A DNA stretch of 64,000 nt. Origin: Guptibacillus hwajinpoensis. Lineage in GTDB: Bacteria > Bacillota > Bacilli > Bacillales > Guptibacillaceae. The stretch spans positions 1 to 64,000 of the forward strand of contig NZ_JAIVAE010000004.1 in the NCBI RefSeq assembly GCF_020171785.1, read 5' to 3'. Every line of letters begins with the position of its first letter. The first letter of the stretch is position 1. Shown in pieces: positions 59,297 to 60,918 of the stretch. Under the pieces are notes generated by a model that worked only from the letters and a program-made list of their open reading frames with translations, was not told the DNA's origin and did not search any database. The position numbers were made by a program, and so were the translations under genes.

Positions 59297-60136
59297 ATGA
59301 TTATTAATCACAACTTAGCAGCAATGAATACTTACAATCAGATGGGTGCGAACCAAGCAAATTCTTCAAAAAACATGGCGAAACTTTCTTCAGGGCTTCG
59401 TATTAACAATGCAGCTGATGATGCAGCAGGTCTTTCAATTTCTGAAAAAATGCGCGCTCAAATTCGTGGGCTTGATCAGGCTTCGCGTAATGCACAAGAT
59501 GGTATCAGCCTTTTGCAAACAGCTGAGGGCGGATTAAATGAAGCTCATTCTATCCTGCAACGTATGCGAGAATTGAGTGTGCAAGCAACAAATGATACTA
59601 ATATTTCAGAAGACAGAACAGCAATTAAAACTGAACTGGATGAGTTAGCAACAGAATTAGAAACAATTAATACAAGAACAGCTTTCAACAAGCAAACTCT
59701 TCTTGATGGTAAGACCGGTGATGGTAGTGGGAGTGTCACCCTTCAAGTAGGGGCTAATTCAAAAGAAACCATGGTAATGGATTTTACTCAAAAAGGGATA
59801 GATTTAACCGCTGTAATTACCGATGTAAAAGGAGCGATTGATGTTACTGACGCTACTACAACTGATGTAATGTTGGTTGCAGTAGAGACGGCCATCCAAG
59901 ATGTAAGTGCCGGTCGTTCACAGATTGGAGCTTACCAAAACCGTCTTGAGCACACAATCAATAACCTTGGGACTTCAGCTCAAAACCTAACTGCCGCAGA
60001 ATCACGTATCCGCGACGTAGACATGGCAAAAGAAATGATGGATTTCACTAAGAACAACATTCTTAACCAGGCGTCACAAGCAATGTTGGCTCAAGCCAAT
60101 CAAAGTTCTTCTGCAGTTCTTCAACTGTTAAGATAA
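59297..60136 (+). CDS. hag: Flagellin Hag
   Basis: A 279-residue flagellin, short because the variable D2/D3 region is almost absent. The N-terminal D0/D1 (IINHNLAAMNTYNQMGANQAN, SSGLRINNAADDAAGLSISEKMRAQIRGL) and C-terminal D1/D0 (NRLEHTINNLGTSAQNLTAAESRIRDVDMAKEMM) are typical. The final tail reads QANQSSSAVLQLLR; many Bacillus flagellins end QANQQPQAVLQLLR. A group I intron-like RNA and a second copy of that tail follow. ATG sits after GGAGG with a sigma-D promoter and CsrA sites. It builds the flagellar filament. Confidence 0.95.
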   Translation: MIINHNLAAMNTYNQMGANQANSSKNMAKLSSGLRINNAADDAAGLSISEKMRAQIRGLDQASRNAQDGISLLQTAEGGLNEAHSILQRMRELSVQATNDTNISEDRTAIKTELDELATELETINTRTAFNKQTLLDGKTGDGSGSVTLQVGANSKETMVMDFTQKGIDLTAVITDVKGAIDVTDATTTDVMLVAVETAIQDVSAGRSQIGAYQNRLEHTINNLGTSAQNLTAAESRIRDVDMAKEMMDFTKNNILNQASQAMLAQANQSSSAVLQLLR

Positions 60137-60158
60137 TTGATTGAACAGGGCGTCTTAT

Positions 60159-60459
60159 TCGGTAACGGGTAAGAGCATAACCGGGTGAATTGCTGGAACT
60201 TCCTTAAGCTTGATTCCCCACAACGTGACTGGAAACGGTGAGCGTGATGGGTTGAAAAGAATCAAGATTGGATAATCAGCAGCCAAGCTCCTGTCTCGAA
60301 AGAGTGGAGAAGGTTCAACGACTAGGATATACCGTCTAAGGCGAAAGCGATGATGATGAAATCCGTAGGGTGGCAAACGCCATTCGAAGTGCCCGGCCCT
60401 TTCGAACACGAGAGGTGAAGATATAGTCTATTCTGTATCCGAAAGGAACAGCGGCAAAG
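60159..60459 (+). ncRNA. Group I intron-like ribozyme downstream of hag
   Basis: Conserved group I elements occur in order: P AATTGCTGGAA (60188-60198), Q AATCAGCAGCC (about 60273-60283), R GTTCAACGACTA (60313-60324) and S AAGATATAGTCT (60418-60429). R GACTA pairs with S TAGTC (P7); P GCTG pairs with Q CAGC (P4); P9 is CTGTATCC-GAAA-GGAACAG (60433-60451). A P1 candidate pairs TCTTAT (60153-60158) with GTAAGA (60169-60174), with a U-G at the splice site. No homing endonuclease ORF is present. Boundaries are inferred. If spliced at the P1 site, the 5' splice site lies after the hag stop codon. Confidence 0.8.
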
Positions 60460-60504
60460 CAAGCCAACCAACAGCCGCAAGCTGTACTACAACTTCTACG
60501 TTAA
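60460..60504 (+). pseudogene. Second flagellin C-terminal tail (orphan exon)
   Basis: Directly after the intron, 15 codons encode QANQQPQAVLQLLR and a stop, 11 of 14 residues identical to the hag tail at 60092-60136. The two 45-nt stretches match at only about 29 positions, differing largely at synonymous sites, so this is not a fresh duplication. This copy, not the first, is next to the hag terminator, suggesting it was the original 3' end. It has no start of its own; it would be used only if splicing joins it to hag. Confidence 0.75.
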
Positions 60505-60513
60505 TTTACTCAC

Positions 60514-60545
60514 AAGGTGGTCTTCAACTGAAGGCCACCTTTTTT
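60514..60545 (+). terminator. hag terminator
   Basis: AAGGTGGTCTTC and GAAGGCCACCTT around AACT (one G-T pair), then TTTT. Confidence 0.9.
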
Positions 60546-60579: not shown

Positions 60580-60918
60580 ATGGAACTAAGAGACGTTTCA
60601 ACTGCACCTATTGGATCAACTAAATTAACTCAGACAACTAATACTGAACTGTATAAAAAGACCGAAAAGCATAAGGTACAAGAAAAAGTTTTATCAAAAG
60701 AAACCGTCGAGAACCACATACAAACTCTCAATACCTATCTGGAACCATCTCAAACCTCACTAAAATTCCAACTCCACGACAAACTAAACGAATACTACGT
60801 CCAAATCATCGACACGCAAACTGACGAAGTGATCAAAGAAATCCCTTCAAAAAAGTTCCTTGATCGCTACGCGGCAACGGCTGAGCTGTTAGGCTTTATG
60901 GTCGATCAAAAAATCTGA
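60580..60918 (+). CDS. flaG: Flagellar protein FlaG
   Basis: A 112-residue FlaG-family protein (YvyC-like). The C-terminal half, LKFQLHDKLNEYYVQIIDTQTDEVIKEIPSKKFLDRYAA (about 62-100), is the conserved FlaG core; the N-terminus is polar and variable. In bacilli flaG lies between hag and fliD, as here, and may limit filament length or help cap folding. ATG has GGGGA upstream. It is followed by its own terminator before the fliD promoter. Confidence 0.88.
   Translation: MELRDVSTAPIGSTKLTQTTNTELYKKTEKHKVQEKVLSKETVENHIQTLNTYLEPSQTSLKFQLHDKLNEYYVQIIDTQTDEVIKEIPSKKFLDRYAATAELLGFMVDQKI

Follow-up and report, generated by a model that had tools for sequence, protein, structure and literature searches.

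We examined a stretch of 64,000 nucleotides from Guptibacillus hwajinpoensis (hereafter, the window; assembly GCF_020171785.1, contig NZ_JAIVAE010000004.1, positions 1 to 64,000), in which the gene hag is followed by a second version of its own 3′ end (Table 1). The hag product is a flagellin, with matches to the Pfam families PF00669 (Flagellin_N) and PF00700 (Flagellin_C). Read without interruption, the gene ends with one C-terminal tail (tail 1), and another (tail 2) lies further downstream. As the original prediction had stated, the two tails are of equal length and identical at 11 of 14 residues, with 29 of 45 bases shared, and the hag terminator follows the second one. The prediction had also placed a group I-like RNA of about 300 nt between the tails and had named the Rfam Intron_gpI model as a check. 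The assignment to this family stands: RF00028 matches the window at 60133-60451 with 81.4 bits (cut-off 50; E 1.9e-20) over the full model, positions 1-253, which confirms, at the level of sequence, that the element in hag is a group I intron. Its extent has to be redrawn, however, because the intron is predicted to comprise 368 nt and to begin before tail 1.

Table 1. Features of the hag gene and its group I intron in the window (a slash marks a proposed splice site)
Feature	Position	Strand	Basis and remarks
hag, predicted unspliced ORF	59297-60136	+	ends QANQSSSAVLQLLR and stop; first in-frame stop 60134-60136
hag exon 1, residues 1-265	59297-60091	+	Flagellin_N/Flagellin_C; 3′ end ATG TTG GCT/
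P1 5′ strand GCU/C, U at splice site	60089-60092	+	pairs with 60148-60151 in unconstrained MFE fold; GCT in 74/74 copies
Group I intron, 368 nt	60092-60459	+	RF00028 core; edges placed from intronless alleles and predicted products
Tail 1, putative intron-encoded substitute C-terminus QANQSSSAVLQLLR and stop	60092-60136	+	frame continuous with exon 1; homologous tails under purifying selection
P1 extension, 5′ strand CAAUCAA	60097-60103	+	partner UUGAUUG 60137-60143
Internal guide sequence GGGC, G opposite splice-site U	60148-60151	+	MFE fold; GGGC in 74/74 copies
P2 hairpin CUUAUUCG-GUAA-CGGGUAAG	60154-60173	+	sequence, MFE fold
P3-P8 catalytic core	60181-60396	+	RF00028 alignment; element names by eye
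P3 strands	about 60181-60186 and 60391-60396	+	RF00028 alignment; names by eye
P7 5′ strand GACUA	60320-60324	+	RF00028 alignment; name by eye
P7 3′ strand AUAGUC	60423-60428	+	RF00028 alignment; name by eye
8-nt linker CGGCAAAG, P9 to proposed 3′ splice site, last base G	60452-60459	+	same form in 61/68 copies (motif)
Exon 2, native tail 2 QANQQPQAVLQLLR and stop	60460-60504	+	like intronless congeners G004/G005; tail 2 pN/pS 0.116
hag terminator, hairpin and T run	about 60517-60545	+	sequence, by eye

Predicted splice sites of the hag intron

The 5′ splice site is predicted to lie after GCU at 60091, ahead of tail 1, and the 3′ splice site after 60459, at CGGCAAAG/CAA; splicing at these sites, which fall between hag codons 265 and 266, would restore the native tail 2. 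Because the intron would begin upstream of tail 1, which sits in the P1 loop, tail 1 would be encoded by the intron itself. The proposed P1, formed by GCU/C and GGGC with a U.G pair at the splice site, was recovered by unconstrained folding of the window intron (z -3.69). When copies of this intron (hereafter, intron 2) were anchored on the ribozyme core and the reading frame, leaving the 5′ motif unused, the codon before the 5′ site proved to be GCT in 74/74 copies, with GGGC before the core in the same 74/74. By contrast, GCT occupies this codon in only 40 of 97 alleles classed as intronless; some intron-2 alleles may have been counted in this class at site 2, an error that could only reduce the difference. 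Formation of P1 in 68/68 copies of the motif-based set is largely built in, given that these copies were found via the GCT and GGGCGTC motifs.

At the other end, joining of the exons yields native-type MLA/QANQ tails in all 61 copies in which the 3′ end fits the search motif. The terminal G is part of that motif in these 61 of the 68 copies; six variant linkers, read by eye, also end with G before CAAGC, and one copy was not resolved. The Rfam model stops at 60451, 8 nt short of the proposed 3′ splice site, and placing the site at this last position was rejected because joining after 60459 restores the native protein exactly. Other versions of P1 were discarded as well. Pairing of CUGUU, within tail 1, with GAACAG is not conserved in the congener G006, and pairing of AUGUU or AUGU with GGCGU or GCGU would add a residue to the product or shift its frame, whereas cleavage after GCU, and after GAU in the companion intron described below, restores the native protein exactly, as judged from intronless alleles and from the companion intron itself.

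Distribution, probable mobility and the native tail

Within the genus, the intron is present in hag of 7 of the 14 genomes surveyed (G000, G006, G007, G008, G009, G011, and G013) and absent from the other 7. Two of the intronless congeners, G004 and G005, have a single hag at this locus, which ends AMLS/QANQQPQAVLQLLR followed by a stop, with codons almost identical to those of tail 2 in the window, and its terminator resembles that of the window. Given that these alleles, of the kind that the original prediction had proposed to seek among related hag loci, carry tail 2 only, tail 2 can be taken as native and tail 1 as having arrived with the intron. When the exon-intron-exon stretch of genome G014 was used as a query against 397 genomes of the order, the layout was found in many genera; the 299 matching genomes include those with partial and exon-only matches. 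Matches to RF00028 occur somewhere in 196 of the 397 genomes. Its presence in half of the genus genomes and across numerous further genera of the order puts the two-tail layout beyond chance.

A recount anchored on the ribozyme core yielded 74 intron-2 copies and 76 copies of the companion intron (intron 1), with 9 more cores falling in neither class. Among the 74 distinct intron-2 copies read in this way, 71 encode an intact replacement tail of 14 residues. The 3 exceptions are a frameshift in L190, an early stop in L201, and the second copy of L200, where tail 1 reads QFEQIAA before the stop; thus, the spare tail can be lost. The hag gene of [Clostridium] ultunense (L052 3912-4279, 4496-5323) contains a similar two-tail intron, in which the 5′ domain is larger; a LAGLIDADG relative lies next to it, and the sequence following tail 2 looks like an intron start again. 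Yet another flagellin site is occupied by a group I intron in L190 (202-448; 64.4 bits), in the N-terminal region after NAQDG.

No recognised endonuclease gene lies inside the 368-nt window intron: apart from the end of hag, only two ORFs of at least 50 aa overlap it, of 84 and 52 aa, both on the opposite strand. Neither was a LAGLIDADG endonuclease gene seen beside the window hag, where an ORF that we take to be flaG begins at 60580, so that no endonuclease gene fits between the two. In G014, by contrast, a 284-residue LAGLIDADG_2 protein (E 3.4e-18) is encoded convergently just after hag. Relatives of this protein are found downstream of 21 of the 68 intron-2 copies, a count that may be too low because the downstream sequence extends for only 300-800 bases in 19 of the 68; 20 of the 21 are convergent, and 4 (L147, L154, L158, and L188) are weak, with 24-40% identity. 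The 99 other loci from the flagellin search, which include overlapping loci and some intron-bearing loci of the genus without an endonuclease gene, gave one short match (L047). Further matches were recorded in L195, L169, L243, L042, and L052, that in L243 consisting of several tblastn pieces beside a hag-like copy. Homing, aided by a separate gene for a LAGLIDADG endonuclease just downstream of hag in many relatives, is probably how the element spreads. As for a vector, searches of phages and plasmids found none, returning only partial matches that fell short of 80% of the query and covered at most 43% among the matches listed.

Selection on the tails and competing explanations

The conservation of the two tails was assessed in 68 intron-2 copies found by motif, after removal of the mis-hits L057 and L074; rows L199 and L203 were dropped, and L052 was read by hand. 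Judging from these alignments, both tails are under purifying selection at the protein level. Tail 1 is exactly 14 codons long before its stop in 66/68 copies and shows a pN/pS of 0.208 across 62 distinct tails, in all of which the residues VLQLL are invariant while their codons vary freely; the spacing from the stop to the guide sequence is spread over all three phases (24/18/24 among 66 copies). For tail 2, pN/pS is 0.116 (38 distinct tails), and this tail is intact in both copies with a frameshifted or prematurely terminated tail 1 (L190 and L201). Furthermore, the two tails of a gene change together: the last residue is the same in 65/66 (R, Q or G in both) and residue 8 in 63/66, values that none of 10,000 permutations reached, although the permutation ignores relatedness, and common descent or gene conversion could contribute to this match. 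Among the seven tail 1 sequences of the window's genus, in which the endonuclease gene was not found, every difference is synonymous.

Given that both tails are selected and change jointly, the simplest account is that both mRNAs give working flagellin, and we consider it likely that unspliced and spliced messages are each translated into the complete protein, probable homing being part of this best explanation. That the intron splices in vivo, that both mRNAs are translated, and that the element homes are what we infer from comparison of sequences. Because bacterial translation is coupled to transcription, early translation of the pre-mRNA is to be expected, and tail 1 should often be reached by ribosomes while the ribozyme core is still to be transcribed. 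The pre-mRNA read unspliced would yield a flagellin of 279 residues with tail 1, and the ribosome stop at 60136 would keep most of the catalytic core ribosome-free. After excision of the intron, the ligated mRNA would encode a flagellin of 279 residues with the native tail 2. The insertion would be harmless at either outcome, spliced or not.

Dual translation was the first of three models in the original prediction and is the best supported of them; overall, that interpretation is borne out in part. The second model assigned the element to the 3′ UTR: the intron would no longer splice, tail 1 would have taken over, and tail 2 would be untranslated. Loss of splicing would be tolerable because tail 1 alone gives a complete protein. 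However, under this model tail 2 and the ribozyme should be decaying, and no such decay is seen in either. On the contrary, the constraint on tail 2 exceeds that on tail 1, tail 2 would be in frame with exon 1 upon joining and persists where tail 1 is broken, and the RF00028 score of the core is far over the cut-off, all of which makes this scenario improbable. The third model, in which a deletion fused two tandem flagellin genes and left two tails, draws on the existence of tandem hag copies in some relatives (e.g., L175 and L200), but is contradicted by G004 and G005, in which the single hag has a similar terminator and encodes tail 2 with almost identical codons, and by the recurrence of the layout, the splice-site codon, and the guide sequence across many genera, so that we give it hardly any credence.

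Two further explanations concern tail 1 itself. Part of this tail pairs with a segment ahead of the guide sequence, and tail 1 might thus be kept for the sake of the RNA, as an extension of P1, with the unspliced mRNA rarely translated to completion. Such a role would not account for the invariance of VLQLL despite free codon variation, for a stop at exactly codon 15 in 66/68 copies while the spacing beyond it drifts through all phases, or for the covariation of the terminal residues with those of tail 2, and we deem it quite unlikely. Alternatively, the spare tail could be a by-product of homing, i.e., a recoded segment of the 3′ exon that shields the element from re-cleavage and plays no part in translation. 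This possibility is in line with the LAGLIDADG_2 relatives downstream of hag and with the recoded host-gene ends known in fungal mitochondrial DNA (PMC3630166). Where no endonuclease is found, however, a by-product would be free to lose its reading frame and would not have to be selected for its amino acids, whereas in the window's genus, with no endonuclease found, the tail 1 sequences differ only synonymously; we therefore regard this explanation as doubtful.

Flagellin genes of thermophilic Bacillus, that is, the same kind of gene in the same wider group as in the window, are already known to harbour group I introns (titles cited in PMC3984707), and the passages of that review considered here mention neither a spare tail nor a degron-like end. 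The review also treats group I introns that have a stop codon in frame close to their 5′ end; such a stop is considered to hold up the ribosome and so to aid folding and splicing. The window intron differs in that what precedes its stop looks like a functional protein end rather than a chance extension. A further parallel comes from mitochondria, where, according to PMC3630166, C-termini duplicated by mobile ORFs occur in atp6 of Allomyces and in atp6, atp9, cox2, and nad3 of Glomus. As in the window, a foreign, synonymously diverged end is fused in frame and the native end is kept downstream. A LAGLIDADG or GIY-YIG endonuclease ORF is linked to the mitochondrial insertions, for which the LAGLIDADG_2 relatives downstream of some bacterial copies may be a counterpart. 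In the mitochondrial case, some or all of the native end is replaced by the inserted one, whereas in hag a ribozyme core lies between the ends, splicing would regain the native end, and the layout recurs across bacterial genera.

The companion intron and its ssrA-like ends

In many relatives, hag carries another group I intron (intron 1), 23 codons upstream, after RDVD/; it is absent from the window's gene. Its P1 consists of GAU/UAUGC and GCACAGUC. Positions -3 to +3 and the guide AGUC are largely fixed by the search motif, position +2 being an A-C mismatch in 68/70 copies, and positions from +4 onward are free; among the latter, changes that preserve pairing are seen at +5 (C-G to A-U or G-C) and +6 (U-A to C-G). 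In the core-anchored recount, GAT precedes the site in 76/76 copies and AGUCGUC follows in 76/76, in contrast to GAT in 49 of the 97 intronless alleles. Exon joining gives RDVD/MA.EM in all 67 resolved copies (of 70). Unspliced, by contrast, the message would specify a flagellin lacking its last 37 residues, with a stop after five to eight intron codons.

The ends thus encoded are strikingly uniform. In the 76 core-anchored copies, the last two residues are AA in 69, VA in 5, AV in 1, and AS in 1, the most common end being YALAA (45/76), alongside YVLAA, YALVA, YAFAA, YTEAA, and others; an earlier motif-based set of 76 copies had 68 AA ends, and the core-anchored set adds HTEAA (L186) and has one YALVA fewer. 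In a random-stop control on three intron-1 loci, codons for AA preceded a stop triplet in 54 of 11,903 draws. The stop falls exactly at codon 6 in 67/70 copies, and at codon 7 or 9 in the others, while the spacing beyond the stop drifts out of phase (45/17/8, with 44/70 at one distance). YALAA is the end of the Escherichia coli ssrA tag. The tmRNA tags called with ARAGORN end with AA in all 9 genus genomes run (14 loci fetched), as do those of 19 of 30 other genomes, with no tag called in the remaining 11. Three of these 19 tags end with YALAA, and in all three genomes so does intron 1. By its sequence, the intron 1 end appears to mark the truncated unspliced product for destruction in the manner of an ssrA degron, although it is encoded in cis by the intron, whereas the ssrA tag is added in trans by tmRNA. 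Such a short end would clear truncated flagellin.

Alternatively, the AA ends could result from RNA structure alone, considering that in many copies the stop is enclosed by a hairpin, which could favour GCU GCN codons. This explanation is weakened by the copies with extra codons that still end with AA (L208 and L209), by the fixed position of the stop codon against the drifting spacing beyond it, and by L200, where the IAA end found at the other intron site appears, by eye, to lie in a loop; the hairpin may nevertheless contribute to the intron 1 ends.

In this second hag copy of L200 (core at about 3981), the intron occupies the window site, and the replacement tail has been exchanged for the QFEQIAA end, which suggests that the two solutions, spare tail and degron-like end, are interchangeable. 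We find it reasonably plausible that flagellin group I introns of Bacillales are translation-proofed: the replacement C-terminus of the 3′ intron would keep the unspliced product, the ssrA-like degron of the upstream intron would destroy it, and in L200 one would have been swapped for the other. The flagellin introns seem to solve the problem in the protein: the unspliced product receives a usable end or, alternatively, a signal for its disposal. For a protein as abundant as flagellin, which is also secreted, a truncated by-product should be most harmful. The findings bear on the long-standing question of how introns are tolerated in bacterial coding genes. A search of PMC, covering titles and the beginnings of abstracts, with most subscription papers outside its range, found no report of an intron-encoded spare protein end or degron in bacteria.

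We found no support for degrons being encoded by bacterial group I introns in general: the in-frame end is AA in 1 of 41 non-flagellin introns, so that a degron-like end is no general habit of group I introns. These 41 remained from 53 introns read, after 6 further hag copies and 6 introns with an upstream frame of less than 100 codons were left out; for each intron the longest open frame was used, and a small number of the 41 may represent intron-internal ORFs. Two recA introns among them end with LVA, and six introns of genes resembling those for nucleotide reductase end with SA or VA. One of the recA genes, identified by eye, belongs to the same genome as the window (L002 1501-1794; G000:C2:516778-517071) and carries, as does L121, a group I intron that scores 30.4 bits, below the cut-off; unspliced, RecA in L002 and L121 would end with MFGNQRLVA, which is degron-like. 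The six reductase introns (L333, L345, L348, L349, L355, and L356), in a host gene that is presumably ribonucleotide-reductase-like, have the in-frame ends RRGKSA, RRGKVA or RRGRVA, and other introns at this site stop at once (GGSR and a stop). Finally, the hag-like copy in L243 (G374:C33:178300-180900) joins the 5′ part of intron 1 to the 3′ part of intron 2, with the intervening exon missing, as if it had recombined between the two introns.
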